From Chloranthus sessilifolius (lineage: Eukaryota > Streptophyta > Magnoliopsida > Chloranthales > Chloranthaceae): DNA of 64,000 nt. Shown in pieces: positions 1,145-53,205 of the stretch (position 1 is the first letter of the stretch; every line of letters starts with the position of its first letter). The notes below the pieces were generated by a model. That model ran no database searches. It saw only the letters and a list, made by a program, of their open reading frames with translations, and was not told where the DNA came from. Position numbers and translations under genes: made by a program. Location: contig CM037590.1 of assembly GCA_021018995.1 (NCBI GenBank), forward strand, positions 83,980,097 through 84,044,096, read 5' to 3'.

Positions 1145-3938
1145 CTAAGAATCAGAATCTGAATTAGAGCTAGATGGGGCCCTTGGTTCCCAACTATATT
1201 TGGCAGCTATCTCATTATACTTGTCTCTCAACCTCGCCTTCCTTTGCAATTTTTCAGCTTGCTTCTCAGACTTGGTCTTTCCTTTTATGGTAGCAGCCTC
1301 ATCAGGCTGGGCAGCTATCTAGCCTTCTTCAACCTGTAGGGCAGGTTTAGCTACTTAGGCAAGCTAGCCAGTAGTCAAGTTAGCAATTTCATTCAAGGAT
1401 TTCAATCTTCTTCTCAGATAGTGCAACTTAAGTGTTATACAATTCCTAGGCTGCCTTGTTCCGAGCTTTGGAGGTAGCCAACCTTTCTTCTAATCCATCA
1501 GCTCTTGATTTCTCAGAGGCGGCAATGAGCTTTTCAGCTTCATAGTGGAGTAAAATGCGTTGTCAGCCCTTGGATATCTTTGACATTTCCTAGTTATAAT
1601 CCACAATCATTTGCTTAATCTTTGCTCTATAAGGCATCTCAATTGATCTACAGAGGGCAGCCATTCCTCGCACAACATCCCTTTTTAGGTAAGGATTCTG
1701 TTGCATGACATGGAGGAGGGTGGAGTATGGAGGGGGATGGGGAAAAGAGGAGGCAGGGAGTATGAACTGAGGGGATTGGAGTTCAGGAACTGGGTAGGTT
1801 GGGGTTGGGGTTAGGTCCTCCACATCTGTGGCAGCATCAGAGGTAGCTACCATAGGTGGGAGATTAGGTTGGGATTGTAGGAGGATGATTGGTAGAGGTA
1901 GGGGAATGATAGGAGGTTTGATAAGGGCAAGTTGGGGTTCTGGTTCAGGTGAAGTTTGAGTCGAGGCATCCTTATAGGTAGGAGAAGGGATGGCTGGTTG
2001 TTGGGGAGGTTAGTTTAAAAGTTTCAAGGTGGAGTGGATGGCTTGGAGGCTAGTTGGCAAAGAGGATTGGCTGTGGAGTGTGGAGTTCATGGTTTGGAGT
2101 GTGACCTCAATTGATGATTGGGTTTGGTTGTTGGCCATCACTTGGGACTGGAGGGAAAGTAAAAGGTTTAGGATATGGGGTAAAGGATCATGTACGACAG
2201 GGGCTGTGGGTTAGATTAATGGAATTGGTTGGAATTGGGGAGTGTGGGTATGGGTAAAAGGTGGGGTGGATGAGTGGGTAGGTTGTGGAGAGTCAGGTAG
2301 GGGAGTGTAATCATGCCCAATATTATCCACAATGGATTTTATCAGGGATGAGTAACCCTCACTGGTCAACTGATCCTGGATGTGTGGAGGTGAGATGTGA
2401 AAAGTGGGATCAAATTCAAAGGGAATGGATGGAAAGTAATATGGATGGGCTAATATGGATGAATGGAGTGGTTAATATGGATGGGATGGCTGGAATGGTT
2501 AATGAAGGTAAGGTAGGGAATGGGTCAATGGTAAAAGGGATTGATAGAGGTGTTGGCATGGTGATAGTGGAGATGAATGCTGAAGTGCTAGAAGGTATGG
2601 AGTCTGGAATGGAAGGTAGGGAAACTTGAATGGATGGTGTGATAACAGGGATGGTGCTGAGGCTGGCCGTCTCAAAGCTGACAGAGGATACAACTGGGAC
2701 AAATGGGGGCCCAAATGGAAGAGTAGCAGATGTGAGCAAAGGATCACAGGAGATTGCTGCAGAGGTTTCAGGTGGAGGTGTGGAGGTAGAGACAGCTGTA
2801 GGGTGAGGATCTGAGCTCACAGAAGCAAATGGGCCTGCAGGTGGAGCTTCTACCTCAGTATCTTCACTGGATTTATTTTTACTCTTGCCAATGAGGGTCC
2901 TACTGGTAGACCATGCCCTCTTCCCAAAAACCTTAGGGGTGACCTTTACCACTGACTCATCTACTTTGAACACAAACTCCTTTCTCTTTAACAAGGCCAT
3001 GATGAGCCTGCTATAAGGGAGCCCAGGTAGGGATTGAGCCTTCCCACACTTGTCATTCACATCCACCATGGCCTCAAACACCAAATGAGCAGCATTTATG
3101 AATTGGCCCTTGGAGAAGAAATATAGGGCATCCATTATTGGCGCTCTCCTCTCTTGTTGGTGCCCACTCACATAGATGTTTTTCCTCAAAATCGAATCAA
3201 AGAAATGCATATTAGGGTGTAAATCTCTTCTCATAATTGACTCCCCAGTCCCCATAATGCCTTGAGTGAGGTGCCTAGCCATTGCTTTGAAGGAGACATT
3301 CTCAAGTGCAGCCAGGCCATAGGCTGGATAAAAAATAGAAGGGACCCCAATGCTATCCCTATATCTCTGTAATCCACCACCAACTCCATATGATCAATCA
3401 AAATGACAAGGCAGGGCTCAATTGAATCTGGCTTGGTTTGTTTCCTGAGATTATGATACCACAGCTTAACCAGCCTTGGGTAACATTTTTCATTCAGTGG
3501 GCTCAACATGGGTGTCAAGCCTGCCTTCACCAAATAATTCAAAGTATCCTGACACTCCTCTACCTTAGAGAAATAGGGGGTGTCAACAATAGTCTCTGTG
3601 ATCAGGCTTAATGCATCCACAAATTCATTGGGTGTGGGTTCTGAGCAAAGGGACTTTAGGCTCTAATTCAAGGTTAGGCTTAGCCTCAAAAATTTCAGGC
3701 ACTAGGTTAGGTTGTCTCAGGGCCTCCTCAACAATGCCTGCACTTATTTAGGCCTTCTTAGAGTTCTTGGCCTTCTTGGTTTTAACAGTTCTCTAAGCTT
3801 CATCCATGACAAGCTTCCTTTTTACAGGTAGGGTTTCCTTAGGCTTTGTGATTTACCTATTGGACTTCCTAGTGGCTTTTGTGAGAGATTTAGAAGGCAC
3901 GCTGAAAAGATTAGCCAAGATGTCCTTTTGATCAGCCA
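1145..3938 (-). pseudogene. Athila ORF2 (so-called env-like ORF), degenerate
   Basis: The reading begins at an ATG at 3938 (MADQKDIL...), is broken by several stops and at least one frameshift near 3335, and ends in an acidic serine tail with the stop at 1147-1145. In order it shows a Lys-rich N-terminus resembling a nuclear localisation signal; a central alpha-helical domain (3620 to about 2950) that resembles what I recall as Pfam's 'putative plant transposon protein' family; a long Ser/Thr/Pro linker (about 2900-1860); and a Lys/Glu/Arg-rich C-terminal helix that looks like a coiled coil (about 1750-1180). I see no signal peptide or membrane segment, which argues against an envelope protein. 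It lies downstream of its own TATA box and motif array. The function is unknown. Confidence 0.7.
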
Positions 3939-4141
3939 TTACTCAATCAACACGATATCAATCACCACTAATTCAATAGCAATCACCACAAAGACCTCAT
4001 GAATGCTCAAATGACCTAGACAACTAAAAATTGAAATTCCAAGCTTGGAAATCACAAGGAGAAGTTGAAGAACTTACCAATAGAAGACTAGGGTTTCTCA
4101 GATCATGCTGTGCACGACGCTAAATCAACTAAGACTAGGCT
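3939..4141 (-). promoter_or_regulatory. ORF2 5' leader with telo-box
   Basis: About 200 bases between the TATA-like box and the ORF2 ATG. It contains AAACCCTAG on the minus strand (plus 4088-4096), a plant telo-box. A GTAAG shortly after it on the minus strand could be a splice donor, but I see no convincing acceptor. Confidence 0.45.
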
Positions 4142-4150
4142 TAAAATATA
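4142..4150 (-). promoter_or_regulatory. TATA box of the internal ORF2 promoter (A)
   Basis: Minus strand reads CTATATTTTAAG, about 200 bp before the ORF2 ATG and 180 bp after the last motif of the array. The layout array, then TATA, then leader repeats that of the LTR of the same element. Confidence 0.5.
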
Positions 4151-4330
4151 GCCCTGAAGAAATTAAAGCAGTTAGAGTAGTGGCAACGTGTTTAGAGTAG
4201 CAACAAGTGAGGTAGAGAGAGAAAAATAAAAAATGGAAAAATCACTAGAGAAGCCTTAAAACTCGGAGAGAAGCTGTTGAATGGCAAAAGTGGAGTTGTC
4301 GTTAGGTTAAAAAATAATGAGGAATGAACT

Positions 4331-4770
4331 TCGATAGGATTGGGGCAAGTCGTCGGCAGGTTGATGCATCCTGTTGAGAAGTGCAAAGTGATAGATCCTC
4401 GTGAGAGGTCCACACAATCCTGTCGACGAGTTCAAGATGACAGAAGCCAGCTTTTCGAGATGTTCATTCCATTGTATAGACAGGTTCAAGGTTATAAAGA
4501 GGATCATTTCGAGAGGTTCACAGAACCTCTCGACGGGTACTTTAAATCCAACACATAAACCTCTTGATAAGTATTCTTATCCTGTCGAGAATTCAACTAA
4601 AACCATCAGAACATGTCGAAACCTTCACAGATCCTCTCGATAATCAACTTTACAGCTTCAGAACCTATCGAGAATTAATTTACACCTCTCGACATCTTCT
4701 AGATCTTATCAAAATGCAGACTGGGAACTCTCAGAACCTGTTGACATGTTCATAGAATCTATCGACAGGT
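4331..4770 (-). promoter_or_regulatory. phased TCGA-core motif array upstream of ORF2 (A)
   Basis: About eighteen copies of a quasi-palindrome related to AACCTGTCGACAGGTT, many as half sites. Core starts on the plus strand: 4331, 4353, 4374, 4399, 4423, 4455, 4477, 4509, 4530, 4564, 4585, 4616, 4637, 4668, 4689, 4709, 4741, 4762. From 4423 on the gaps are 32, 22, 32, 21, 34, 21, 31, 21, 31, 21, 20, 32, 21 bp. Spacers between cores are mostly unrelated. Decayed cores read TTGA or TCAA, as expected from CpG deamination. The same motif fills the LTR of this element. Confidence 0.8.
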
Positions 4771-5012
4771 TGTATTTCAGTTGAAAGAGGCTTGTAATCA
4801 GTTCCCAATTCATTCCCCAACAGATTTGATACTCCAACTTTGTTCACTTCACGACTTTGACTCATTTTCCTACTCGAGGTACTAACACACATGAAAAATT
4901 TATGTACAATGCTTCACAGAATTGAAATAAAAATAGAAAAAAATTAGCAAAAATAAATAACCAAAGACATAAGTTATTATACATATTATACATTAGTTGA
5001 AACTCAGTCATG
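4771..5012 (-). other. pol deletion scar and AT-rich spacer (A)
   Basis: In copy C about 3 kb of RT-RNase H-INT coding follows the equivalent of 5013. Here the pol reading runs into AT-rich sequence and within 250 bp meets the ORF2 promoter array. The bulk of pol has therefore been deleted or was never present in this subfamily. Confidence 0.6.
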
Positions 5013-7816: not shown

Positions 7817-7834
7817 TCCCCGACAGCGGTGCCA
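7817..7834 (-). other. primer-binding site of Athila A
   Basis: Minus strand TGGCACCGCTGTCGGGGA. It differs at three positions from the tRNA-Asp complement TGGCGCCGTTGCCGGGGA, which is present without change in B' (25616-25633). It lies six bases inside the LTR end, as in B and B'. Confidence 0.82.
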
Positions 7835-8838
7835 AAAACTTGTTGTTCTGCCAACCATGTAATTATTATATGATTAAAACAGTAGATTAACTATACAAAC
7901 TATAGCAAGGTTGAATTAAGGTGAGCAGCCAGTCCTGTAAGAACTAGGGCTGTTGCAGCAAGTTTTGATAGGTAAGTAAGGGTATGCCCACAGGGAAATG
8001 TGCTCTAAAGGATGGTAAATCTCCAGATCTATGGTAAATCTGGCACTCTATCCTAATTTAAACTAAACTAAAGCAGGAAAGAAGAGAGGTTTTATGGTTT
8101 TATCACTTTAACTACAAACTACAAAAGATAATTGCTATTGATCCGAACTTGATTAAACACAGAGATGAGAAAACAAAAATAAAGTGAAACTCAAAAGATG
8201 GAGAGCAGCAGCTAGGGGTTTTGGCCTTTTACTGAAAATCAAAAGAATCAAAAGTAGTGCATAGAATAGATTTGCTACAATCCTCCATCTGGCTACAAGC
8301 TCCCCAATTTTGGAAAATGCAAGGTATAGGAATCCAATCTCAACTAGAGAATTGAAGAAATCCTAAGGCTATGATCTATCCACTTTAATGGTCATAGACC
8401 ATCCCAGAGATTATTCCACTCTAAGGATCTTGATTAGAACAGGAAAGCTATTGTAGATGCTGCAAGTGCCTGGCTACCAGCTCCCCATTTCTAGCTGGCA
8501 TCCATAGGAATATCTGACCCAGGGAAATCAAATACGAAAAAGTGAAATGTAGATCAGAATCACCTTTAAAATCCATAATTACATTAAAATCATAAAACTT
8601 ACAATCCTATTGTACTCAGATCTGCAATCTATGCAACATACAATCCTTTACAAGTCTCTGAAACTCTTAATTTACAGCTCTAGACCTCACCCTAACTACT
8701 GAAAAGAGTTTAGCCAACCATGATTTGCTAAAGAGAATGGGAGAAGAAGGAAGAGAGAGGGAGTTTAGAGAAGATGGATCTGAAATTAGGCTCTGGTTCT
8801 CTCGAATTCTGGATGGTTACTCTGTATTTTCTTCAAGC

Positions 8839-8845
8839 TTTTATA
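8839..8845 (-). promoter_or_regulatory. TATA box in LTR A
   Basis: Minus strand GAGAGTATAAAAGCTTG, about 280 bp downstream of the motif array. A telo-box (minus AAACCCTA, plus 8991-8998) lies between the array and this box. Confidence 0.6.
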
Positions 8846-9126
8846 CTCTCCTCCTCTATCGTCAGATTCGTTTCAGCCAATCAGAGATCCAGGGAATAAT
8901 TTTATTATTCTAGGCTGCTGATGTGGCTGATTTCTCTTCTAGAAGCACTTCTCCTATTAGTTCTCAAATGGCAGGAATCTATGATGCAGTTAGGGTTTCA
9001 ATTCGTGCTCAGTTGAATACCAAAAATTCCCCCAGGGGGGCGCTGACGTGCTTTGGAACTCTTGCATAAAACTTTGGAATTGGTAGTTGCTGAGGAAAGA
9101 AAGCTGAGAAGTTGCCAGTTCGATTG

Positions 9127-9572
9127 TCGAGAGGTTCAGGGAACCTCTCGACAGGTTGCATTGGCTTTTGACAACTTCGCAGACTTCTCGATAGGATTAA
9201 AGAAGCTAGTTGATAGGTTTGGCAGTATCTCGATAGGACTGGGAGTAGCTCTCGATAGGATTGGAAACTAAATTAATCCTGCTATCTAGTTTTGCATTCA
9301 TCTTGTTGCTAGGTTATAAGAAACCTGTTGACTTATTATACATTCTCTAGTGAAGTGCTCGACAGGTTGGCTCAATCCTCACAAGAATGAGCCTTGCTTC
9401 AGGTAAGTTGTCGATAGGTTATCTTGCACTGCTCAACAGGTTCAGTTGAACCTCGCGATAAGTATCTGGAACCTCTCGACTTCATCTTTACCTTGAAGTA
9501 TCCTCTCGACAGGTTCTTATGCACATGTTCAACCTCTCGACTGCTTCATTCCTTACTCTCAGAACCTCTTGA
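9127..9572 (-). promoter_or_regulatory. phased TCGA-core motif array in LTR A
   Basis: Same motif as at 4331-4770. Core starts: 9127, 9148, 9188, 9210, 9230, 9252, 9285 (weak), 9306, 9328, 9359, 9379, 9411, 9433, 9454, 9476, 9506, 9537, 9569. Gaps fall at 20-22 or 30-33 bp, with one of 40. The pair at 9127/9148 contains the clearest full palindrome (AACCTCTCGACAGGTT). Confidence 0.8.
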
Positions 9573-9849
9573 CAGCTCTGCTTTGTGCTTCCACAACTAG
9601 CACACATCTTGGGTGTGTTGTTCTTCCTTTGTTTAACACCCAGCAACCCCTTAGTAGGTTTAATCTTTATTACTTGTAGCTGGACTTGGTCTCAAGCATT
9701 TCCTGTTGGGTAGCACAGTGCTTTTTGGGCTCTTTTAAGTGAATATATGCACTAAGCTGTAATTTATTGCTTATCTATAAAACACACTTAAAACACCTTA
9801 TTAGTCAGCTCAAGGGTCCACCAAAGGTCAGGTTAGGAGGTGAAAAATG

Positions 9850-9901
9850 GTATTTTTCACTGCTTAACAAACCCCGTATTTTTCACTGCTTAACAAACCC
9901 C
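9850..9901. repeat. 26-bp tandem duplication across the LTR A outer edge
   Basis: Two exact 26-base copies side by side, starting GTATTTTTCACTG at 9850 and at 9876. Each contains the outermost LTR bases plus CCCC from the flank. The LTR end is therefore present twice, and the target duplication cannot be read simply. Confidence 0.85.
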
Positions 9902-15646: not shown

Positions 15647-16285
15647 TGTTAGTCAATGATTTTTACCACATTTTACCCTTTAAACCTTACTTTTGCTAAG
15701 CCTCAGAGTATTTAATAATTGCTTTTTAGTGTTGATTTGCAATAATGAGGTAATTGCAGGCTTAGTGCAATTTTGTAGATTAAAGGTGCCATTAAGGAGG
15801 AATTTAAGAGTAGAGAGAGAGAGATGTGCTTTCACACATGAGGAAGAAGTGCAGCAATAGGTTCTTGGACCTCATGAACCATAGCAGCCATCACATTGAG
15901 GACTTATGCAATCAGGAGGCTCAACAACATTTGAAATGGGAACATTGCAGCAATCAGCTCAACAACATTTTGAGCTATGTACACAATCATTTGGTTCCCC
16001 ATTTCAAGCAACAGAAAAATGTGGGGAGCTGTGTGCACACGCACATTAGTTGCACACTGCAGAAAGCAACTCGAGATAGAATAGCTGCACACTAAACAGC
16101 TAGGTGCATGATAGAAACAATGCAGGATGCTGAATATAAATTCCACTGATGAAGAAACGTATTCAAGCAGTTCAAGCTTCAAGTTCCTCCCAAATCGAGT
16201 AGCTCTTCATCCTCTTGAAAGGTATGTTGAAGACCAGTAGTAGAACCTGGCAAATTGAAGTAAAAATAGTAGAATATGATGCAAA

Positions 16286-17240
16286 CCTGTCGAGGTTCAA
16301 CCTCTTGAATTAAGCTCCAGCAATCTGCTCGAGCACCTGCACTCCAACCCACCATCCTCTCGAAGAGTGCAGCTCCCAAAACTCCAACCTAGCGAAGGAA
16401 AAAAGCTGCTTTTCAGCAACCTATCGAATGGAGAAGTAGAGCTTAAAAACCTATCGAGTTGCACCATTAAAGAGCAGCAACCTGTCGACTCTCTCAGCTG
16501 CAAACCATACCTATTGATTGGTATATGCTTCTGCTTCAAAGTGCAACCCTAAAGCAACTGAACCTGTCGATGTGCATTTAAAGCCTACCTATCAACTTAT
16601 AAAAGCAGCAGCATCAGAACCCATCGAAGAGAACAAATGTGCACTAGAACCTATCGACTAGTTAAGCTTAAACTTGTCGAAGTGCAGCTTCCCCACCTTC
16701 AGAACCTATCGAGAACTCCAAGGAAAATCGCTGAGAACCCCACTTCATCCTGTCGACACCTTCATGGGAGCATAGCAGAACCTATCAACTTGAAGCACCT
16801 TCCAATCCTGTCGACATCTAAAAGCTTCAACAAACTCCCAAGCTTCATCCTGTCGACCTCTGTCTCTAAACCATCCAGCAACCTCTCAACTCCTCAGCTC
16901 TCTATGCCCACTACTTGTCGACTAGCAAGCTTCCAAACCATCAAATCTGTCGACACCTTTGCAGCCCCATTCACTAACGTCTTGACATCTTGCTGAAGCT
17001 GCTACACTCCAAACCAACCTCTCGAATCACTCCTCCAATCCTCATGAAATCTTGCTGAAGCTGCTGCCTATAACCCACATCCTCACGAACAGATCCTCTA
17101 CACCACCTTTATCCATTCGACATCTTACTGAAGCTGCTGCCCTTTTAACTTCCAACCATCACTTATCGACCAACAAACCCAAGCACCCATCAAACCTGTA
17201 GAGGACTTCTTTTCAGCAGATTTTATCCTCTCGACTTCAT
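16286..17240 (+). promoter_or_regulatory. TCGA-core motif array in LTR B (5' copy)
   Basis: More than 25 copies of AACCTGTCGA or a close variant, almost all in one orientation. Core starts include 16360, 16392, 16424, 16454, 16485, 16514, 16567, 16592, 16624, 16654, 16677, 16709, 16753, 16785, 16811, 16853, 16886, 16918, 16950, 16982. Gaps cluster at 29-33 bp (32, 32, 32 at the end). Confidence 0.8.
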
Positions 17241-17907
17241 CTTCCCCACCTCACTGTTGAAGAAGCAGTTGGCATATATGCCTGCAATTGATCCAGCTCA
17301 GGCCCATCAAACTCTATTGAGTTTCAACTGACAATTTATTGAGGTTACTAAAATTGCAGCCATTTGATTGAATATTTTCAAGACCCTAGCAGTTTATCAA
17401 ATCAGATTCTATTTGGGGGCTGTTTTGGAAATAAACAGCAGCAGAAGATACATTGGGCTGCAGTTGGAAATAATAATGGACAACAGGAGTAATAACAGTA
17501 GCTTGGGTTCATTTTGTTGACAGCAATTATAAAGAGGTGCAGCTAGGTATTTCTAGTTGACAAGGGCATTTTGGGGAACTCCAAGGCATGAAAGAGGTAT
17601 GCACATGGGCAATTGATTTGCAGAAATTAAATGAATAATGCAGTTGGAGTTATATTTTTGGGTAAAATATTATTGATTGGCAGGGGTAATTTTGAAACTC
17701 CACAGTAGGGATAGCTGCCCACATATGCAGACTATTTTTAAGAGAAATTCTTGGCGAGAACAAACTACTTCAGCTAAGCACAACAGACTTGGACCCCTCT
17801 CTTCTCTCTGATTGGCTGAAATGCTAAGCACATGGATTAGCATAAACTAAAATTAGATTCTCTCCTCTGATTGGCTGCAATCCAAAGCACTTGGATCACT
17901 GCATGTG

Positions 17908-17915
17908 TATAAATA
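17908..17915 (+). promoter_or_regulatory. TATA box in LTR B (5' copy)
   Basis: GCATGTGTATAAATAAAAC. The same box is at 24290-24297 in the 3' LTR and, inverted, at 26655-26662 in B'. Confidence 0.65.
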
Positions 17916-18937
17916 AAACTCATTGCTGCTGTAATTTCTTAGTAAGGAATCCATAGAATAACTTTGGTTCTCCTTAGCTCATTTAGGTTTAGTTTAGTTT
18001 TATTTTTCTTTTTTTCTTCCCCCTTCTCTCCCTAATCTAGCTTGTTGGATTAGATCTAAGTAGTAGCTCAGATCTGGTTTTTAATTGTAATTTGGCATGA
18101 AGGCCTTGTGGATTGATGCACAGACTATAGATCTGAGAACAAGGACATTGTAAGTAATTTTTGATTCAATAAATTGTTGATTTTAATGTCCAATTAAAGC
18201 TAAAGATTTTGTGGTTTCATTATATGTCTATAGGATCTATGTATTTGGGAATACCCCATTCAGTTTCTAGTAGATCTATTGTTTACCATCTGATTTTCCT
18301 TGGTTTAATATCCCTGTGGATGCTTGAGCTTGTAGCCTTGCATCCATAGCATCTGTAGTGATTTTACTATTTCAATCTGAACCATTAGATCGGATGAAGT
18401 CTATAAGATGATCTGTGACCATTCAAGTGGATAGCACATACCCTTATGATCAGTCTAAGCCATTGGTTTGGTTTGAATTCTTCTACCTTGCACTTGAGCT
18501 TGTAGCCAAGTGAAGGAAAGCTATAGATTCACATACCTTGATCTGTTTTGCAAAAGAAAATCAGGCCCTAGCTGTCTATTTCCCATCATTTTCTATTTTA
18601 TTTCACCATCCATCTTCCTCAATCTTTTAGTTTAGTTTTATATTTCAGTTTTATAAATTAGATCTAGTGACACCCGAAGAACTCTCTTTCTTCTTAGATT
18701 TAGGCTAGAATTGCCAGATCTATAGCCAGATCTAGAGGTCTACTATGCACCTTTTATGATTTAGAGCACTACTCCCTGTGGGACAAACTCTTATTAAAAC
18801 TTGCTACAAATTGACCCTGTATCTTGCAGGTCTAGGATAATTTTAGTGTGCTAATTCCATCCTCTGTTTTACTTTGATTTTAAATTGTTTTTATCACACA
18901 CAATAAATCAGTACATGAAATATCCGTAACAAGTTTT

Positions 18938-18955
18938 TGGCACCGTTGTCGAGGG
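18938..18955 (+). other. primer-binding site of B
   Basis: TGGCACCGTTGTCGAGGG, six bases after the LTR end. A diverged form of the tRNA-Asp complement seen intact in B'. Confidence 0.82.
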
Positions 18956-22074: not shown

Positions 22075-25000
22075 ATTAGTCAATGATTTTTATCACATTT
22101 TACTAAGCCTCAGAGTATTTAATAATTTCTTTTTAGTGTTGATTTGCAGTAAAGAGGTAATTGCAGGCTTAGTGCAGTTTTGTGGATTAAAGGTGCCATT
22201 AAGGAGGAATTTGGAAGCATTTAAGAGCACAGAGAGAGAGAGATGTGCTTTCACACATGAGGAAGAAGTGCAGCAGCAGGTTCTTGGACCTTATGAACCA
22301 CATCAACCATCACATTGAGGACTTAAGCAATCAGGAGGCTCAGTAACATTTGCAATGGGCACATTGCAGCAATCAACTCAGCGACATTTTGAGCTACGTG
22401 CATAATCATTTGGTTCACCATTTCAAGCAACAGCAAAATGTGGGGAGCTGTGTGCACACACATTAGTTGCACACTACAGAAAGCAACTCGAGACAGAACA
22501 ACTGCACACTAAATAGCTAGGTGCACGATAGAAGCAATGCAGGTTGTTGAATATAAATTCCACTGATAAAGAAATGTATTCAAGTAGTTAAAGCTTTAGG
22601 ATCCTCCCAAATCGGGCAACTCTTCATCCTCTTGAAAGGTATGCTGATGACCAATAGTAGAACCTGGCAAATTGAAGTAAAAAACAACAAAATATGAAGC
22701 AAACCTGTCAAGGATTCAACCTCTTGAGTGAAGCTCCAACAATCTTCTCTAGCACCTGCACTCCAACCCGCCATCCTCTCGAAGAGTGCAGCTCCCAAAA
22801 CTCCAACCTAGCGAAGGGAAAGAGCTGCTTTTCAGCAACCTATCGAATAGAGAAGTAGAGCTTAAAAACCTATCGAGTTGCACCATTAAAGAGTAGCAAC
22901 CTGTCGACTCTATTAGCTATAAACCATACCTATCGATTGGTATATGCTTTAGCTTCAGAGTGGAACCTTCAAGCAACTGAACCTGTCGATGTGCATTTAA
23001 AGCCTACCTATCGACTTATAAAAGCAACAACATCAGAACCCATCAAAGAGAACAAATGTGCACTAGAACCTGTCGACTAGTTAAGCTTAAACCTATCAAA
23101 GTGCAGCTTTCCCACCTTCAGAAACTATCGAGCACTCCAAGGAAAATCGCTAAGAACCCCACTTCATCTTGTCGACACCTTCATGAGAGCATAGTAGAAC
23201 CTGTCAACTTGAAGCACCTTCCAATCCTGTCGACATCTAAAAGCTTCAGCTAACTCCCAAGCTTCATCCTGTCAATCTCTGCCTCTAAACCATCCGGCAA
23301 CCTCTCGACTCCTCAGCTCTCTATGCCCACTACCTGTCGACACCTTTGCAGCCCCATTCACTAACTTCTCGACATCTTGCTGAAGCTGCTACACTCCAAA
23401 CCAACCTCTTGAATCAAACCTCCAATCCTCATGAAATCTTTCTGAAGCTACTGCCTATAACCCACATCCTCACAAACAAATCCTCTACACCACCTTTATC
23501 CTCTCGACATCTTGCTGAAGCTGCTGCCCTTTTAACTTCCAACCATCACTTATCGACTAGCAGACCTAAGCTCCCATCAAACCTGTCGAGGACTTCTTTT
23601 CAGCAGATTTTATCTTCTCGACTTCATCTTCCCCACCTTACTACTGAAGAAGCAGTTGGCCTATATGCCTGCAACTGATCCAGCTCAGGCCCATCAAACT
23701 CTATTGAGTGTCAGCTGACAATTTATTGAGGTTACTACAATTGCAGCCATTTGATTGAATATTTTCAAGACCCCAGCAGTTTATCAAATTGGATTCAATT
23801 TGGGGGCTGTTTTGGAAATAAACAGTAGCAGAAGATATATTGGGCTGTAGTTGGAAATAATAATGGATAGGAGGGGTAATAACAGCAGCTTGGGTTCATT
23901 TTGTTGACAGCAATTATAAAGAGGTGCAGCTAGGTACTTCTAGCTCACAAGGACATATTTGGACCAAGGCATGAAAGAAGTCTGTACATGGGCAATTGAT
24001 TTAAAAAATTAAATGAATAATGCAGCTGCAGTTATATTTTTGGGTAAAATATTATTAATTGGCAGGGTCAATTTCGAAACTCCATAGCAGGGATAGCTGC
24101 CCACATGTGCAAACTATTTTTAGGAGAAATTCTTGGCAGGAACAAACTACTTCATCTGAGCACAACAGAATTGGATCCCTCTCTTCTCTCTAATTGGTTG
24201 AAATGCTAAGCACATAGATTAACATAAACTGAAATTAGATCCTCTCCTCTGATTGGCTGCAATTCAAAGCACTTGGATCACTGCATGTGTATAAATAAAA
24301 CTCCTTGCTGTTGTAATTTCTCAGCAAAGAATCCATAGAATAACTTTAGTTCTCCTTAGCTCATTTAGGTTTAGTTTAGCTTTATTTTTCTTTTTCTCTT
24401 CCCCCTTCTCTCCCTAATTCAGCTGTTGGATTAGATCTAAGTAGTAGCTTAGATCTGGTTTTTAATTGTAATTTGGCATGAAGGCCTTGTGGATTGATGC
24501 ACAGACTACAGATCTGAGAACAAGATCATTGTAAGCAATTTTTGATTTAATGAATTGTTGATTTTAATGTCCAATTAAATCTAAAGATCTTGTGGTTTCA
24601 TTAGATGTCTGTAGGATGCATGTATTTGGGAATAGCCCATTCAGTTTCTAGTAGATCTATTGCTTACCATCTGATTTTCCTTGGTTTAATATCCCTGTGG
24701 ATGCTTGAGCTTGTAGCCTTGTATCCATAGCATCTGTAGTGATTTTACTATTTCAATCTGAACCATTGGATCGGATGACGTCTATAGCATGATCTGTGAC
24801 CATTCAAGTAGACAGCACATACCCTTAAGATCAGTCTAAGCCATTGGTTTGGTTTGAATTCTTCTACCTTGCACTTGAGCTTGTAGCCAAGTGAAGGAAA
24901 GCTACATATTCACATACCTTAATCTATTTTACAAAAGAAAACCAGGCTCTAGCTGTCTATTTCCCATCATTTTCTATTTTATTTCACCATCCATCTTCCT

Positions 25001-25316
25001 CAATCTTTTAGTTTAGTTTTATATTTCACTTTTATAAATTAGATCTAGTGACACCCGAAGAACCCTCTTTCTTCTTAGATTTAGTCTAGAATTGCTAGAT
25101 CTGTAACCAGATTTGGAGGTCTACTATACACCTTTTTGGTTTTAGATCACTACTCCTTGTGGGACAAACTCTTACTTATTAAAACTTGCTACAAATTGAC
25201 CCTGTATCTTGCAGGTCTAGGATAATTTTAGTGTGTTGATTCCATCCTCTGTTTTACTTTGATTTTAAATTATTTTTATCACACACAATAAATCAACACC
25301 TGAAATATCCGCAACA
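22075..25316 (+). repeat. 3' LTR of B
   Basis: Starts TATTAGTCAATG (TG changed to TA) and ends ATATCCGCAACA. Aligns with 15647-18931. Motif array at 22705-23625, TATA box at 24290-24297. Confidence 0.9.
22705..23625 (+). promoter_or_regulatory. TCGA-core motif array in LTR B (3' copy)
   Basis: Counterpart of 16286-17240 with scattered substitutions and small deletions. Many cores are intact in one LTR and TTGA or TCAA in the other, showing independent CpG decay after insertion. Confidence 0.78.
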
Positions 25317-25615
25317 AGAATTTGGGTTTGATCACCTTCAAATACCTTATTCAAGCATATTGACAAAAACAAAATGAAAAACTCAGGCCATAGCCTCATT
25401 TCTATAAAAATTGCAAAAGCTGCAGTAGCATTTATTCAAATAGCTAGAAGGCAAAGAATATAACTCAGAGAATTCAGGATTACTGCAGTTTAAAATAGGT
25501 TTTTTAAATAAAAACTGCAACAAACATATATTCAAACAGTTTGAATGCATTAAAAATTAAGGAAAAAATCATATCTGCAAAATGAAAAACTCAGATCTAC
25601 TATCTAGATCAAAAC

Positions 25616-25633
25616 TCCCCGGCAACGGCGCCA
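25616..25633 (-). other. primer-binding site next to LTR B' (intact)
   Basis: Minus strand TGGCGCCGTTGCCGGGGA, the unmutated complement of the tRNA-Asp 3' end. It is the best PBS of the Athila group here and is followed by only about 300 bp of leader. Confidence 0.85.
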
Positions 25634-25639
25634 AAAACT

Positions 25640-28600
25640 TGTTGCGGATATTTCATGTGCTGATTTATTATGTGTGATACAAACAATTTAAAATCAAAGT
25701 AAAACAGAGGATGGAATCAGCACACTAAAATTATCCCTGACCTATAGGATATAGGGTCAATTTGTAGTAAGTTTTAATAAGTAGAGTTTGTCCCACAGGG
25801 AGTAGTGATCTAAAACCTAAAAGGTAGTAGACCTCTAGATCTAGCTACAGATCTAACAATTCTAGCCTAAATCTAAGAAGAAAAAGAGTTCTTCGCGTGT
25901 CACTAGATCTAATTTATAAAACTAAAATATAAAACTAAACTAAAAGATTGAGGAAGATGGATGGTGAAATAAAATAAAAAATGATGGGAAATAGACAGCT
26001 AGGGCATGGTTTTCTTTTGCAAAACAGACCAAGGTATATGAATTTGTAGCTTTCCTTCACTTGGCTACAAGCTTAAGTGCAAGGTAGAAAAATTCAAACC
26101 AAACCAATGTCTTAGACTGATCTTAAGGGTATGTGCTGTCCACTTGAATGCTCACAGATCATCCTATAGACTTCATCCAATCCAATGGTTCAGATTGAAA
26201 TAGTAAAATCACTACAGATGTTGTTGATGCAAGGTTACCAGCTCAGGCATCCACAGGGATATTAAACCAAGGGAAATCAAATGGTAAGTATTAGATCTAC
26301 TAGAAACTGAATGGGCTATTCCCAAATACATGGATCCTATAGACATCTAATGAAACTACAAGATCTCTAGATTTAATTGGACATTAAAGTCAATAATTCA
26401 TTGAATAAAAAATTACTTACAATTACCTTATTCTCAGATCTGTAGTCTGTGCATCAATCCACAAGGCCTTCATGCCAAATTATAATTAAAAACCAGATCT
26501 GAGATACTACTTAGATCTAATCCAACAAGCTAGATTAGGGAGAGAAGGGTGAAGATAAAAAGAAAAATAAAGCTAAACTAAACCTAAATGAGCTAAGAAG
26601 AACCAAAGTTATTCTATGGATTCCTTGTTGAGAAATTACAGTAGCAAGGAGTCTTATTTATACAAGTGCAGTGATCCATGTGCTTTGGATTGCAACCAAT
26701 CAGAGGAGAGAATTCGATTTTAATTTATGCTAATCCATGTGCTTAGCATTCCAACCAATTAGAGAGAAGAGAGGGATCCAATTCTGTTGTGCTCAGTTGA
26801 AGCTTCCCACCAAAGATTTAGAAATCAGTTTTGCACCTGTGGGTAGCTATCCCTACTGTGGAGTTTCGAAATTGTCCCTGCCAATCAATAATATTTTACC
26901 CAAAAATATAACTCCAGCTACATTATTCATTTAATTTTTGCAAATCACTTGCCCATGTGCAGATCTCTTTCATGCTTTGGAATTCCCAAATCTTCCCTTG
27001 CCAACCAAGAACATTCGCTACTACACACGTCAAATAATAGTACCCAAACTGCTGGGAATGCCCTAAATAAAACTCACCATCCTCTGTGCTACCCAAAATA
27101 CCCCTGCTGTTATTATTTCTGAAGAGCCCTCAGTTGGAAACATGCTCAATGCCATGGCTGCACAGTAACATCAGCAGTTTTGATCGTTGAAACTCAATGG
27201 GGCCTAAGTTGGATTAGCTTGAAAAGCTATGGGCTGATGAGGGTTTAGATTTGCAGCTTTATTAAACTCTATAGCTCCAGCAGTGCAGTGGAGAAGATGA
27301 ACTTTAGAGCATGTGGTATGTACTCAAGAGGAAAGCTGAATGGGGTAGCTGTTGTTTTGTAATTCGAGAGGACCAGTTGCATTTGCTTGAGAAGTAAATC
27401 ATTGGCTTCAGCAACCATTCAATGGGTTTACTTCAAGCACTCGATAGGTACAATGGTTTCTTGGTGCAACTCGAGAGGATGGCTGATGAAGTGCAACTAC
27501 TGTTCGACAGGTTGGTGAGTGGAGTAGATGAAGGGCAGCACCTTCAGGTAACGTGTCGTGAGGATAGAAGGTGTAATTCGAGAGGTTGGTTTGGAGTGTA
27601 GCAGCTTCAATAAGATGTTGAGAGGATGGGAGTTGGAGATTCGAAAGGCAGCAGCTCCAGGTGCCTCTTCGTGAGGATGGGTGGTGTATCTCGATAGGTT
27701 GGTCGCTATTTGGAGCTGCTAGTCAAGAGGTTGGTTGAAGGTAAGCTTGGGTATCTCAACAGGTTGCATGGGAGGTTCTGAAGCTGTTGAGTATCCACTC
27801 GAGAGGATAAAATCTGCAGAAGAGATAGTTGTCGATAGGATTGGCTGGAAAGTTTTCATGCACAAGTCGACAGGATGTAGAAGAAGGCTGAAGCGGGGAT
27901 GGTCAACAGGTTTGGGAGTTTACAATGTATTTCAAGAGGTTCAAGGGGAGGAGAGGATTGATGGGAGGTTGGTTGGAGCTGGGAGTTGCTGTAGTCGATA
28001 GGATAAATGAGAATGGGTGCCGCAGCCTTAAGTTTTCAAGAGGATTGAGTGTAGGGCTGCAGCTTCATGCTGTCGACAGGTTCTAACCCCAAATGGTCGA
28101 TAGGTTCCTATGCCATTGCATGTACCACTCGACAGGATTGCTGGTGCAACTTGACATGCTGCTGAAGCTTCTAAAACAACTAGTTGACAAGTTCGAAGGT
28201 GCGAAGGAGCTCTCGAGAGGATTGATGGAGCTGTGGGAGTGGCTGCTTGAGTGTGCATTAATGCTCAAATACTTCTATTATAGCTGCTGTTGCTTTCATT
28301 CTCCAAGTTGACAGGTCCAAGCCTCCAAGCCTCCATTCAGCAGCTTATACACTTCAGGGGGTTGCTTCCAGCCTGTAGAACTTAGGTTGAATTTCAGTCT
28401 TCTTGACAAGTTGATGTACCATTGCATGGAATACTGTATTTAGGAAGGTTGCAAGGCTTGGATGAGGGGTTGCTGAAGGTGTGCAAATTGCATGGCTTGG
28501 ATGGGTGCAGCTGGTTATTTTGAGGGGTTCAAGGGGCTGCTGGTGTTTACATCCAATGTTCAAGATTTAACTACAGCAGCTACCTTGCTTTGAGGTTCAT

Positions 28601-29086
28601 ATTGCTGCAACTTGTTGATGTATGCACCAACTAATAAATGTGCAGCTGCTCCCATGGCCTGGGCTGTATATTGAAGTGTTGCATCTACTGAACTGCTGAG
28701 TTCTAATGTGTTGCTGCTGCATGCGGTGTTGAACCCTTTTGGTGGCTGCTGCAACTGAAGATAGAGTTCATGTGTGCATTCATTGCTGCTCAAGCGTGTT
28801 CATTGCAGCACTTTGAGAATGCATTGCAGCCATGTAGCTGCTGAAAGTGACCCTCAAAACACCTCCAATGTGCCTGGGCTGAAGCCATTCCATTCATCTC
28901 TCATTCTCAACTGTGGATTGATTCCAAAACCCCTCTTATTGACACTTCTAACTGCAAAACTGCACTTAAGGATGCAATTACCTCATTGCTGCTAAACAAC
29001 ATTAAAAGCAAGTATTAAATACTCTAAGTCCTATCAAAAGCCAAGTTTAAAAGGGTAGAAAATGGTAAAAGCCAATGACTGAAACA
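25640..29086 (-). repeat. LTR of B' (3.45 kb)
   Basis: Element-sense start TGTTTCAGTCATTGG at 29086 and end CCGCAACA at 25640. It aligns with LTR B in leader and 3' part. TATA box at 26655-26662. It differs from LTR B in the 26820-28000 stretch; fragment D has the same subtype (its GATTTCTAAATCTTTGG block). Confidence 0.85.
27365..28320 (-). promoter_or_regulatory. TCGA-core motif array in LTR B'
   Basis: Many copies of TCGACAGGTT, TCGAGAGGAT and TCGATAGG on the plus strand, i.e. the reverse complement of the array in B, as expected for an inverted element. Spacers do not match those of B. Confidence 0.75.
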
Positions 29087-39563: not shown

Positions 39564-39756
39564 TGTTAAGACCTGAAAAGTACCACTTTTCACCCCATAA
39601 CTTAACCTTTGATTAGACCACCTAATAAGTTCTTGTTAAGTGTTTTGGGTAGGTAATAATCCGCAGTGAAATAAGGCCAAGAATCCTGTTATGGAGCCTG
39701 CTTTGGCACCAAATATCCCTCAGAAGAATGAACTCTGAATCCAGACCTGAAATGAG

Positions 39757-40490
39757 CCTCGAGCAGCTGACCCAAGCTTTAGAGGATTCAAGAGAAATAT
39801 GCCTTGCGCAGTTCAACTGAGCTTCCCAAGGCTTTACAATAACCTCTCGCGCAGATGAATGACTGAAGAGCTTTAGAAACTCAAACTTGCGCAGCCCTCG
39901 CGAAGCTCAAGAGTAGAACACATCGCTTAGTGTCGTGCAGTTCATAGCAGACATCTCTCAATCTCGCGTAGTTCACTCAGAGCGGCTGAGGAGAGAGAGC
40001 TTCAGAAGATTCCTCGCACAGCGGTCGCGCAGTCGCTGTGGGATGCAGTTATCAGAAGAAGAATGCCTCGCGCAGTTCTCACGCCATTCAAGAAAGAAAA
40101 CATCCTGGCAAAGGCAAAGCCAAAATCGAGAAGATCAAGTGAGACATAGAACCTTGCACAGTTCAGAACTCAGAAGAGCCTCGCGAGGTAACTCGCAAAG
40201 TCTAAGTAAAGAGAAGTGCTCGCAAAGTTCTCACGCAGCTGCCCAACGAAGACTGATCGATCGTGCGACTGCTTGAATTTCAACCCCGCAACACTTGAGA
40301 CTGTGTTTTCTATTCAACCTCGCAAAGCCCAATCCAGCGAGAGCTCAACTCTCTACCGCGCGACTGCCTGAAGAGCAAACCAAGGCAACCTTGCGATGGC
40401 TGAAGCTTCAGTGTCAAATCATCCTAGCGAAGAGCAAAGAGCTACCACGCGACAAGTCTTGGAAACTACAGCTACCTAGTGAAGCTCTGA
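39757..40490 (+). promoter_or_regulatory. TCGCG-core motif array in LTR C (5' copy)
   Basis: Around 20 copies of TCGCGCAG or TCGCGAAG and decayed forms. Starts include 39804, 39847, 39887, 39898, 39923, 39933, 39964, 40014, 40025, 40068, 40079, 40154, 40181, 40193, 40220, 40231. Many form pairs 10-12 bp apart (39887/39898, 39923/39933, 40014/40025, 40068/40079, 40181/40193, 40220/40231). Repeated in the 3' LTR at 50875-51580. Confidence 0.8.
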
Positions 40491-40666
40491 CCTAAACTTC
40501 CATCTCTTCAGTAGAGGGCCTTCTGGGTATTTCCAGTGATTAGGGCACGCACTCCCATGCTCAAATCTCCGTGCACGTGCCCCGAGGCATCCAAGGATCA
40601 TTATCCGACCACGTGGCATCGTTAAAATTAGGGTTTCCTAACCCTAATGCGCCGCCACCCCACTGC

Positions 40667-40674
40667 TATATAAA
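40667..40674 (+). promoter_or_regulatory. TATA box in LTR C (5' copy)
   Basis: CACTGCTATATAAACCC, 20 bp after the telo-box pair. The same box is at 51760-51767. Confidence 0.7.
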
Positions 40675-40986
40675 CCCATACCTGAGCTTAGGTTTAGGCA
40701 TCTGGGAACCCATCTCAGATCGTTTTTCTTTTCTCTTTCTTTTTAGCAGTAAGTAGTTTTCTTTTTCTTTCCTTCTCTCCATAGTCCAGCACTTGCTGGC
40801 TATGCCTTTGTATGTGTTTTTGAATTAAATCAATGGAAGTTTTGTAATAGGATCTGTACTTTGTGAGATTATTGTTTGTGTGTGAGATGCACTGTGCAAG
40901 GCTGCTGCCTTGTGATCCGCCATCGCTTTGGCTGTGTTTCAAAGCAATGGAGGACTGATTCTAAGGACCACTCAGATCCAAGTGAC

Positions 40987-41700
40987 CTATGTGTCTGGGC
41001 TGTCATGGTCCTATAGCCTTAGCCCCACCACAGGACCCACTAGATCTGAAATCCCTATGGGAGCTTGAGCTGGTAGCCTTGTGAGCATGGTGGTAGCAGC
41101 GATAATCTTGTTTTGTTTTGGGCTCCGTGAGGAGGATAACCTCTGGGATAGTCTGTGACTATTTAAGTGGATAGATTATAGCCTTAGGGTGATTCTGATC
41201 CACCAATCCAAGATGGATCCTTCTTCTTTACACCTGACCTTGTAGAAGCCTGGTGAGAGATTATACAGAGGCAGACTCCCCCATAGTGTTTAGATCCGCC
41301 ATCAGATGTTGGATCTGATCTAGTTATAGAGATTGTAGGCTGGTGACTGGACCATTGTAGCCTCGCTCAAGCAATGGACAGCTAGGTCGAAGGTTGTACT
41401 CAATCTCTTGCTGGTTCTATGTGTCTGGGCTATCATGGTCCTATAGCCTTAGCCCCACATATAGAACTTTAGAGGTTGAGGTTCCCTATGGATTCTTAAG
41501 CTGGTAGCCTGGATGAAATAGTGCCTGTAATGATTTACTTGTTATGTTCTGACCCATCCCTGGATAGTGGCTCCCCTATGGGATAATTTGTGACCATTCA
41601 AGTGGACGGGTTATAGCCTTAAGGGTAGAATCATGGCAGAGTGATGGGTTGGATCCTTTCTCCTCAGAGGTGATAATGTAGCCTCTGGATCGGATTTCTA
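40987..41700 (+). repeat. ~430-bp duplication inside the LTR C leader
   Basis: CTATGTGTCTGGGCT starts at 40987 and again at 41417, followed in both by TCATGGTCCTATAGCC, an AGCTGGTAGCC module and a TGTGACNATTNAAGTGG module. In the 3' LTR the units start at 52080 and 52511. LTRs A and B have a single copy of these modules. Confidence 0.75.
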
Positions 41701-44345: not shown

Positions 44346-44421
44346 GGCAATTAAACAAGTCCCAGCCTATGCAAAGTTCCTGAAAGACCTCTGCACCCAA
44401 AAGAGAAAGGCTAGAGGCCAT

Positions 44422-45889: not shown

Positions 45890-45900
45890 TTGGCAAGTTT

Positions 45901-46248: not shown

Positions 46249-46333
46249 CTTTTCTGAATGTCAAGGCTTTTGAAACATTAAAATATGCCTCACCTCCTCA
46301 GTACTCCAAACACGGACTATACCACACTGTTGA

Positions 46334-47992: not shown

Positions 47993-48574
47993 ATTGAACG
48001 ACCTACAGATCCTTTGTGCACTATTCATTTTCATGGGACCCCTACATCTACCTGACCCGCAGTTGTGTCCATGTTGTACTATACTACTTTTGTTTCTACC
48101 TTAAGTTTTAGGAAATTTTAGGGGATATGTGGAGTTTGATATTGTTGAGCCTGATAAAGTTTATGTGGGATCGGTATGACTTATTCTTCTTCTTTGAATT
48201 GCTTATTTGGCCCTCGCGCATTCCAAATTTTGATTTGGGAAGACTCGCGCAATTCGCATGGACCATTTCTTTCGCTGTCGCGAGTTTCAATGCTCCAGAA
48301 TCTCTCGCGCACTTCCAGCGCTAACTCCCATAATCGCTGATTCGATTTCGTGATTCCTTACCCAGTTGCCTTGAGCCTAATGTATTTGTCATTTCCCACG
48401 CTGACTGCTGACTTGACGTTTCCCAACTCACTCTCATTTAATGGCGGCAACTTGGATGTTATTCAACCGTTTCATCTTCCACCATCCCTCGCCTTTAAAT
48501 ACACAGGGAGGCCCTGTTCATCTTCATCGCATCCTATCTCCTCTCACCCTAGTGGTCCTTCCCTAATCCTAATC
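47993..48574 (+). promoter_or_regulatory. putative internal ORF2 promoter (C)
   Basis: Downstream of integrase lie TCGCG motifs at 48214, 48245, 48254, 48278 and 48305 (31 and 9 bp apart for the first three), the same motif as in LTR C. A TATA-like TTTAAATA is at 48494-48501, 75 bp before the ORF2 ATG. This mirrors the order in element A with a different motif. Confidence 0.6.
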
Positions 48575-48814
48575 ATGGCAGATGACAAGCCAAACGCACT
48601 GCCTAACAAGTTTTAGCCGATGTGGTTGGACCCGCCGCCCCCTAAAGAGCCAGATCTCCTCCAACCCCTCTGGGATGAATTCGAGGAGGTTCTACAAACC
48701 CTTGCCAAGGAGGAGGAAAACCTCCAGCCGCAGCAGAAGAAGTGCAAGATAGAGCCATCCCTTGCCCCCTCCACTCCACCCTCTCCCCCTCCTTCTCAAC
48801 CCCCTCACCCCTGA
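48575..48814 (+). pseudogene. ORF2 remnant (C)
   Basis: Starts MADDKPN, comparable to MADQKD in A. A TAG follows after 13 codons. The rest (48620-48814) is acidic, then has a short basic patch (KKCK) and a Pro/Ser tail ending at a stop. The conserved central domain and coiled coil seen in A are gone, so C cannot supply this protein. Confidence 0.5.
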
Positions 48815-50669: not shown

Positions 50670-53205
50670 TGTTAAGACCTGAAAAGTACCACTTTTCACC
50701 CCTTAACTTAACCTTTGATTAGACCCTTAGCCACCTAATAAGTTCTTGTTAAGTGTTTTGTGTAGGTAATAATCCGCAGTGAAATAAGTTCAAGAGTCCT
50801 GTTAAGGAGCCTGCTTTGGCACCAGATATCCCTCAGAGGAATGAACTCTGAATCCAGACCTGAAATGAGCCTCGCACAGCTGACCCAAGCTTTAGAGGAT
50901 TCAAGAGAAATATGCCTCGCGCAGTTCAACTGACCTTCCCAAGGCTTTACAGCAACCTCTCGCGCAGATGAATGACTGAAGAGCTTCAAAAACTCAAACT
51001 CGCGCAGCCCTCACAAAGCTCAAGAGTAGAACACATCGCTCAGTGTCACGCAGTTCATAGCAGACCTCTCTCAATCTCGCGCAGTTCACTCAGAACGGCT
51101 GAGGAGAGAGAGCTTTAGAAGATTCCTCTCACAGTCGCCGCGAGATGCAGTTATCAGAAGAAGAATGCCTCACACAGTTCTCGTGCCATTCAAGAAAGAA
51201 AACATCCTGGCGAAGGCAAAGCCAATCTCGCAAAGATCAAGTGAGACATAGAACCTTGCACAGTTCAGAACTCAGAAGAGCCTCGCTAGGTAACTAGCGA
51301 AGTCCAAGTAAAGAGAAGTGCTTGCAAAGTTCTCGCGCTACTGCCCCACGAAGACCGATCGACTGCTTGAATTTCAACCCTGTGACACTTGAGATTGTGT
51401 TTTCTATTCAACCTCGCAAAGCCCAATCCAGCGAGAGCGCAACTCTATCGCGTGACTGCCTGAAGAGCAAACCAAGGCAACCTCGCGATGGCTGAAGCTT
51501 CAGTGTCAAATCATCCTAGCGAAGAGCAAAGAGCTACCATGTGACAAGTCTGGAAAACTACAGCTACCTAGCGAAGCTCTGACCCTAAACTTCCATCTCT
51601 TCAGCAGAGGGCCTTCTGAGTATTTCCAGCGATTAGGGCACGCACTCCCATGCTCAAATCTTCGTGCACATGCCCAGAGGCATCCAAGGATCGTTATCAG
51701 GCCACGCAGCATTGTTAAAATTAGGGTTTCCTAACCCTAATGTGCCACCACCCCACTGCTATATAAACCCATACCTGAGCTTAGGTTTAGGCATCTGGGA
51801 ACCCATCTCAGATCATTTTTCTTTTCTCTTTCTTTTTAGCAGTAAGTAGTTTTCTGTTTCTTTCCTTCTCTCCATAGTCCAGCACTTGTTGGCTATGCCT
51901 TTGTATGTGTTTTTGAATTAAATCAATGGATGTTTTACAATAGGATATGTACTTTGTGGGATTGTTGTTTGTGTGTGAGATGCTCTGTGCAAGGCTGCTG
52001 CCTTGTGATCCGCCATCACTTTGGCTGTGTTTCAAAACAATGGAGGACTGATTCTAAGGGCCACTCAGATCCAAGTGACCTATGTGTCTGGGCTATCATG
52101 GTCCTACAGCCTTGGCCCCACCACAGGACCCACTAGATCTGAAATCCCCATGGGAGCTTGAGCTGGTAGCCTTGTGAGCATGGTGGTAGCAGCGATAATC
52201 TTGTTTTGTTTTGGGCTCCGTGAGGAAGATAACCTCTGGGATAGTCTGTGACCATTTAAGTGGACAGATTATAGCCTTAGGGTGATTTTGATCCACCGAT
52301 CCAAGATGGATCCTTCTTCTTTACACCTGACCTTGTAGAAGCTTGGTGAGAGATTGTACAGAGGCAGACTCTCCCATAGTTGTATAGATCTGCCATTAGA
52401 TGTTGGATCTGATCTAGTTATAGAGATTGCAGGCTGGTGACTGGACCATTATAGCCTCGCTCAAGCAATGGACAGCTAGATCGAAGGTTGTACTCAATCT
52501 CTTGTTGGTTCTATGTATCTGGGCTATCATGGTCCTACAGCCTTAGCCCCACATATAGAACTTTAGAGGTTTAGGTTCCCTATGGATTCTTGAGCTGGTA
52601 GCCTGGATGAAATAGTGCCTGCAATGATTTACTTGTTATGTTCTGACCCATCCCTGGATAGTGGCTCCCCTATGGGATAATTTGTGACCATTCAAGTGGA
52701 CAGGTTATAGCCTTAAGGGTGGAATCATGGCAGAGTGATGGGTTGGATCCTTTCTCCTCAGAGGTGATAATGTAGCCTCTGGACAGGATTTCTATAACAT
52801 CAAATCTAAATCTGAGTTACAAAACTTCTCTGACCTTGGTTCAGTAACATACTTCTCACCATTTTTATACTCATTTTCCACACTCCATCCATCCTCTCAA
52901 CACTTTCTGTAGTTTAGTTATTAGAATACTTTGAATAAGTGACCTTAAACTCCCCTCCTTCTAGGACTGCCAGATCTGTAGACAGATCTGGAGAGGCTAC
53001 TAGAGATGGCTCCCTTGGAGCTTTAGATGACCTTTCCCTGTGGGACAAACTCTTACTTATCAAAACTTGCTACAAAGGACCCTGTATCTTGCAGGTCTAG
53101 GACTTCTGAGTTGTGCTGGATTCACCCTCTATTTTACTCTGTCTTTGATTTTTTAATAATTTTCACCACCAACCAATAATCAAAGCACACCGGAAGTAGT
53201 CAACA
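50670..53205 (+). repeat. 3' LTR of Athila C
   Basis: 2536 bp, aligning with 39564-42094. Motif array 50875-51580, telo-box pair 51721-51740, TATA box 51760-51767. The GCAGG target copy follows at 53206-53210. Confidence 0.93.

Follow-up and report, generated by a model that had tools for sequence, protein, structure and literature searches.

Matched, family-specific arrays of palindromic CpG sites in the LTRs and downstream of pol in Athila-like retrotransposons of Chloranthus sessilifolius

Retrotransposons in the Analysed Region

The stretch of DNA analysed here (the window) comprises 64,000 nucleotides of Chloranthus sessilifolius contig CM037590.1 (positions 83,980,097 to 84,044,096, assembly GCA_021018995.1) and carries elements of several retrotransposon families. 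Athila A lies on the minus strand, its parts following each other in the order 5' LTR (7832..9875, ends approximate), gag and protease fragments, a motif array (4277..4772) and a broken ORF2 (2416..3939); the other LTR, 89% identical, falls to the left of the window. Family B is present as LTR-like repeats of about 3.2 kb, and family C as a plus-strand element (39564–53205) whose frames for gag and pol (42372–47992, several pieces) run gag, RT, integrase, with RT before integrase. In addition, a distant pol at 54200–57230 shares 35% identity over 260 aa with the family C integrase frame and contains almost none of the three motifs described below.

With the RT- and integrase-bearing frames of family C as queries, the Athila A copy gave a single match, of 64 aa, at the beginning of the frame that bears RT. 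The pol remnant that the original prediction, made from the letters of this one copy, had placed beside the array consists of protease. Sites resembling what we take to be the primer-binding site of the Athila kind occur at 7817–7834 in family A (3 mismatches), once in family B (0 mismatches) and at 32059 (2 mismatches), and none was found at family C. The name Athila is used here as a probable assignment that draws on the original prediction, on a below-cut-off match to PF20167 in the ORF2 piece of the window and in L017, and on a sunflower Athila ORF similar to PF20167 which is predicted to be nuclear (PMC11728184).

Internal Array of Athila A

The internal array (4277..4772, minus strand) consists of 18 dyad sites of the form AACCTNTCGANAGGTT, most of which are separated by about two or three helical turns. 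Exact TCGA occurs 11 times within 4280–4800 of the window copy, where base composition would predict 1.9. Among 27 close copies (89–93% identical, from 39 other copies listed), the majority state has exactly 18 TCGA cores between 4277 and 4762, located at 4277, 4331, 4353, 4374, 4423, 4455, 4477, 4509, 4530, 4564, 4585, 4616, 4637, 4668, 4689, 4709, 4741 and 4762. From 4423 onwards the gaps are 32, 22, 32, 21, 34, 21, 31, 21, 31, 21, 20, 32 and 21 bp, which is the very series that had been predicted from one copy together with about 18 cores; the array is real, and only its start has to be moved, from 4331 to 4277. The 17 majority-state gaps give R = 0.80 at 10.5 bp, a value that no simulation attained when gaps were drawn uniformly from 16–56 bp 20,000 times. 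In the window copy the exact core is gone from seven of the 18 sites, which fits fast CpG decay; in the alignment of close copies, 71% of the core CpG cells are intact and 26% read TG or CA, as compared with 58% intact at nine other CpGs and 88.5% at non-CpG dinucleotides.

Alignment of 238 array sites yielded a 16-bp dyad, AACCT-N-TCGA-N-AGGTT, with little information beyond ±6 bp save at position +10 (0.22 bits) and in the neighbouring site. The two half-site centres are separated by 11 bp, roughly one turn of the helix, as a homodimer would require. Where one half-site is strong its partner tends to be weak (r = −0.16, 222 sites), as though the total affinity of a site were conserved, and the stronger half-sites tend to point toward the array centre. 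Covariation of the RNA type across the dyad gave no positive signal in 222 sites (Watson-Crick z from −3.9 to +0.5 at six inner pairs), and hairpins within single sites were rejected on this ground.

Spacers had been described as largely unrelated in sequence, and this holds in part. Once the sites are masked, spacer identity at lags 21, 31 and 52 is 0.293, 0.327 and 0.307 (mean 0.281, sd 0.020), that is, near background at 21 and 52 and slightly higher at 31; a tandem unit of about 52 bp is thus not seen in family A, and Tandem Repeats Finder at score 40 called no repeat over the internal array. On the other side, ungapped repeats of about 40 nt with 60–73% identity exist in the array, two of them 52 bp apart, and a weak CTGAAG recurs among the spacers of 30–33 bp gaps (identity 0.403 vs 0.360 for shuffled spacers, sd 0.014, 36 pairs). 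Within the arrays of L047–L066 and the window this hexamer is found 31 times, with 4 reverse complements, and never in 15.4 kb outside them; where a core lies at most 40 bp upstream, 15 of 24 occurrences sit 10 bp after it. The spacers are therefore not mere filler, and an origin of the array by duplication is likely. CTGAAG may also be a second motif, and it is visible by eye in the spacers of family D too.

Helical Phasing Among Athila A Copies

The lineage is very numerous in this genome, one ORF2 piece giving 32,585 first-look candidates, of which 150 were scored. From the scored ORF2 matches a diverged set of 20 rows (65–72% ORF2 identity) was picked by hand, and the region 250–1450 bp upstream of each match was examined. 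Between 10 and 20 TCGA were present in 18 of the 20, against about 4 expected, the exceptions being L063 with 6 (92% identical to L065) and L061 with none and no homology there. Distance statistics were computed for 20 sequences, namely the window and 19 of the diverged set, with L061 omitted and the near-duplicates L057 and L063 retained. Pair distances of 15–60 bp have their best period at 10.5 bp (scan 7–14 bp; 278 pairs, R 0.717), and so do those of 100–300 bp (731 pairs, R 0.401). For comparison, eight further palindromic 4-mers each yielded more than 10 pairs; among them CTAG reached R 0.68 at 10.5 bp with 15 pairs, and the remainder ranged from 0.11 to 0.52. Taken singly, 15 of the 20 sequences are phased at p<0.05 (failing: L058, L060, L063, L064 and L065), and jittering of the sites by ±5 bp lowers the pooled R from 0.649 to 0.065. 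As the copies are related by descent, these pooled counts are not independent. The distance distribution in family A is not flat, and the earlier reading of the gaps as alternating between two and three turns of B-DNA is borne out by the 10.5-bp period.

Changes in interval length were compared in pairwise alignments of 18 sequences (L057, L063 and L061 left out), with 655 array intervals and 655 matched flank intervals. Changes of 9–12 bp were found in 29 array intervals vs 15 flank intervals and those of 19–23 bp in 42 vs 1, whereas changes of 3–8 bp were rarer in the array (25 vs 84). Comparing the 9–12 bp and 3–8 bp classes between array and flank, Fisher's test gave 1.4e-6, a value that ignores dependence among copies; core-anchored alignment may itself favour in-phase length changes. 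Two classes speak against the keeping of phase, in that changes of 1–2 bp are commoner in arrays (196 vs 138 of 655) and those of 13–18 bp are not depleted there (14 vs 10 in flanks). The original prediction had also placed a protein on one face of the helix. Phasing across the 20 sequences, the length changes and the 16-bp dyad support a one-face arrangement, from which we infer that a protein binds there.

LTR Arrays of Athila A and Family B

The same 16-bp dyad recurs, phased, in the U3 of the Athila A LTR (9120..9580, minus strand), beginning about 300 bp into the LTR. Downstream of this array lies the LTR TATA box TATAAAAG (8838..8845, minus strand); TATAAAA is present in 10 of 13 LTR segments, including both LTRs of the window element. 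For the U3 arrays of Athila A, in a count of 9 LTRs of 6 elements that leaves out L009 (family D) and the second L014 region, 128 pairs gave R 0.786 with a best period of 10.6 bp. The matching array in the LTR and the turnover of motifs between families described below were absent from the original prediction, and they are the stronger evidence for a function.

The LTR-like repeats of family B carry mainly a one-sided half-site, AACCTNTCGA. In the first (about 15691–18940) the array spans 16195..17235 on the plus strand with half-sites in one orientation, in the second (about 22098–25325) it spans 22779..23622 on the plus strand, and in the third (about 25634–28919), next to a PBS-like site at 25616–25633, it spans 27441..28217 on the minus strand. 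These repeats are weakly phased (38 pairs, R 0.32, best period 12.3 bp).

Arrays of Families C, D and E

Other families place other motifs at the same two places. In family C, U3 arrays of the motif CTCGCGCAG, which is different from that of A, occupy 39760..40450 in the 5' LTR (39564–42094) and 50873..51580 in the 3' LTR (50670–53205), both on the plus strand and both unphased. The internal array (48215..48373, plus strand) starts 223 bp past the end of the last pol frame at 47992; its CGCG cores at 48215, 48246, 48279, 48306 and 48370 (gaps 31, 33, 27 and 64 bp) are all five found in the majority state of 16 copies, from 39 listed besides the window. No ORF2 was recognisable downstream of the family C array, whereas families D and E have an extra ORF after pol. 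Family E (L019), whose integrase is 86% identical to that of C over 203 aa, bears TCGCG at both the LTR and the internal position.

In family D, TTCGAA occurs in the internal array of L020 and also in the LTR region of L009, an element of the same family whose sequence is cut off within integrase. Of six open pol pieces compared between the two, four are 87–92% identical, one is 60% identical and one is unmatched. The contiguous DNA downstream of the L020 ORF2 (L187) contains six TTCGAA with gaps of 31, 20, 52, 20 and 21 bp, within a segment that shares 86.7% identity with the start of the L009 LTR; TTCGAA had been expected there before the sequence was fetched, though this expectation was not put in writing. 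The LTR in L187 (1175–3961) is itself a mosaic, with a 432-bp start of the D type bearing TTCGAA and a start of the C/E type from 1629 with seven CGCG at 1832–2244, which suggests recombination between Athila families.

Across 13 regions from clades A/B, D and C/E, each clade's own motif occurs at 11–26 per kb and those of the others at 0–4 per kb, so that the matrix is block-diagonal, while three control regions of pol or gag-pol do not exceed 0.6 per kb. These regions were picked after the motifs had been seen, except for the last D LTR, which lies outside the matrix. Within each of the three clades the motif of the LTR is the motif of the internal array. The top motif density in the matrix belongs to a C-like LTR (L022, 8950–9730) with 15 CGCG sites, whose gaps are unphased (p 0.76).

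Spacing is shared less widely than position. When all exact cores are used, clade D is phased, with 19 gaps from one internal and two LTR arrays giving R 0.75 (0 of 20,000 simulations as high) and a best period of 10.9 bp. The internal array of family D alone gave R 0.68 (n 9, p 0.011) with exact cores, and only 0.32 with 15 loosely scored sites; a value obtained when strong sites were chosen by hand (R 0.98, n 7) was superseded by that from all exact cores. In clade C/E, exact cores gave no significant phasing in the C LTRs (R 0.12, 10 gaps, p 0.87), in the E LTR (p 0.48) or in the E internal array (8 gaps, p 0.085), although motif-scored sites in the last gave p 0.005 with a best period of 11.5 bp. 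Spacing by two and three turns is consequently claimed as a shared property for A and D only. A dyad scan of viral contigs returned at least 120 stretches, the best count among those listed being 7, in L166; these matches are regarded as noise.

ORF2 and Its Upstream Region

The broken ORF2 of Athila A probably starts at an ATG near 3939, where ATGG is found in 14 of 18 aligned copies. Between this start and the array lie a conserved block at 4139..4150 (minus strand), which reads TATATTTT in the window copy only and TACATTTT or similar in most others, and, at 4067..4096 (minus strand), a conserved AAACCCTA (13/18) followed by a splice-donor-like GTAAG (14/18). The latter two may possibly belong to a 5' leader of the ORF2 transcript. 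With GTAAG at 4067–4078, upstream of the ORF2 start, a leader intron is also possible. The TATA box that had been proposed ahead of ORF2 did not survive comparison, since of 18 aligned copies only that of the window has TATA[AT] at this place, and it was dropped as evidence for an internal promoter in family A. In family C, on the plus strand, a TATA-like TTTAAATA at 48494 stands 81 bp before an ATG at 48575 (together 48494..48577), whose frame here has 13 codons and then a stop.

The ORF2 product is rich in lysine at its start and in Ser and Pro in its tail. A Pfam search of L024 at E 0.1 found no match, and a protein search with a 288-aa ORF2 piece screened 1,109 candidates and kept no match at E 0.001. 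Modelling by ColabFold from 11 sequences reached a pLDDT of 35 and a pTM of 0.24, with no usable fold.

Proposed Function of the Arrays and Alternatives

Arrays of a clade-specific motif thus stand at matching positions in the LTR and downstream of pol, with phasing in clades A and D. On balance, we think it probable that they serve as operators, bound by a dimeric factor particular to each family that acts on the LTR and on a promoter of ORF2, in the manner of foamy-virus Tas or of VANC. A dimeric protein would read the 16-bp dyad across its central CpG, and dimers on neighbouring sites, these being two or three turns apart, would align on one face of the helix and act together. Since U3 has these operators in front of its TATA box and the stretch from pol to ORF2 has them before the putative leader, one factor might serve both promoters, controlling the genomic RNA promoter in the LTR and a separate, presumed internal promoter of ORF2, with the two outputs coupled, presumably by activation.

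Plant LTRs are known to make use of host factors, and the sites could be those of host transcription factors, a different one having been recruited to the LTR by each family and its sites reused before ORF2. Motifs do differ between families within one genome, and clade C/E lacks clear phasing, as unrelated factors might give; yet spacing by two and three turns is common to A and D despite their different motifs, and the number of sites appears unusually high for host enhancers, so that we regard this explanation as unlikely, though it carries real weight. A history of tandem-repeat drift is a good deal less probable. The arrays would then be decayed minisatellites with units of about 21, 31 and 52 bp whose spacing was inherited and serves nothing, much as Retand elements bear family-specific tandem arrays after pol (PMC11963269). 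This would account for the weak CTGAAG common to the spacers of 30–33 bp gaps and for the spacers of family D, which by eye resemble 31-bp repeats; it sits poorly with a masked spacer identity that stays close to background for lags of 21 and 52 and is only slightly raised at 31, with the depletion of 3–8 bp length changes and with CpG cores that persist despite fast CpG decay. Duplication may well have given rise to the array, but absence of function is not likely.

It is very improbable that the palindromic sites act in RNA, as hairpins or dimer signals of the transcript. Every site is palindromic and the folding of the array beats that of shuffled sequences (z −2.64, 1 of 100 shuffles as good), but covariation across the dyad is not positive in 222 sites, and the array of the 5' LTR, being upstream of the TATA box, is presumably outside that RNA.

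Returning to operators bound by a dimeric factor, such a factor would probably be peculiar to the element and evolve together with it, a reading favoured by the joint change of LTR and internal motifs, the constancy of their places and the spacing that A and D share with different motifs. We infer that ORF2 is the leading candidate for this factor from its place, its lysine-rich start, its Ser/Pro-rich tail and the nuclear prediction of the sunflower ORF (PMC11728184); counted against it are the lack of a recognised ORF2 in family C and of a modelled fold. More tentatively, and with considerable doubt, the Athila ORF2, long called envelope-like, might be a nuclear regulator that binds DNA sequence-specifically, at phased operators centred on CpG in the LTR of its own element and ahead of its own gene. 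Each family would then possess a private circuit of activation or anti-silencing, and the recognition sequence would have been replaced as families split.

Comparison with Known Systems

In the literature accessible to us, which excludes most subscription journals and so makes for a weak negative, no earlier report of matched arrays or of this layout in Athila was found. The parts of the arrangement have precedents elsewhere, and it is their combination in Athila that would be new. The layout of boxes at two places is already known from Ty1/copia elements. In Sireviruses, numerous palindromic boxes that contain CpG lie ahead of the TATA box in the LTR and again 5' of ENV, a layout which the authors take as support for an internal promoter (Bousios 2010, PMC2829016). 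The likeness extends to the families described here, with palindromic boxes upstream of the LTR TATA and 5' of an extra gene, but Sireviruses are Ty1/copia elements whereas Athila here is Ty3/gypsy, with RT before integrase in family C. The boxes of Sireviruses keep CGG-CCG in the RM-bearing members except Tnd-1 while other letters vary, as against TCGA, TTCGAA and TCGCG here, and helical phasing, present in Athila A and D, goes unmentioned for them in the available text (PMC2829016).

Foamy viruses offer a case in which one element-encoded protein, Tas, acts by binding both the promoter in the LTR and an internal one (PMC4929722). These viruses are animal retroviruses, and site arrays are not mentioned for Tas in the available portion of that report. 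Retand elements are similar in that the stretch from pol to the 3' LTR holds an extra ORF (TRP28), which is suspected to bind DNA, together with repeats specific to the family; their extra ORF is antisense, however, and the accessible part of the source does not mention a matching motif in the LTR (PMC11963269).

Motif turnover is known from the VANC/VANDAL anti-silencing system, in which short, non-coding repeated motifs differ between families, as they do here, and an element-encoded protein evolves with the motif (PMC5735166). VANDALs differ in being DNA transposons with motifs of 8–9 bases for which binding has been shown, whereas binding in Athila is putative; the words 'spacing' and 'helical' do not appear in the main text of that study (PMC5735166). 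The function of extra ORFs such as ORF2 has been termed unknown (PMC11728184), and matched, family-specific operators turn it into a simple question, namely whether ORF2 binds the motif of its own family and no other. Were this so, LTR retrotransposons would have a counterpart of the VANC of DNA transposons, a rapidly evolving regulator encoded by the element.
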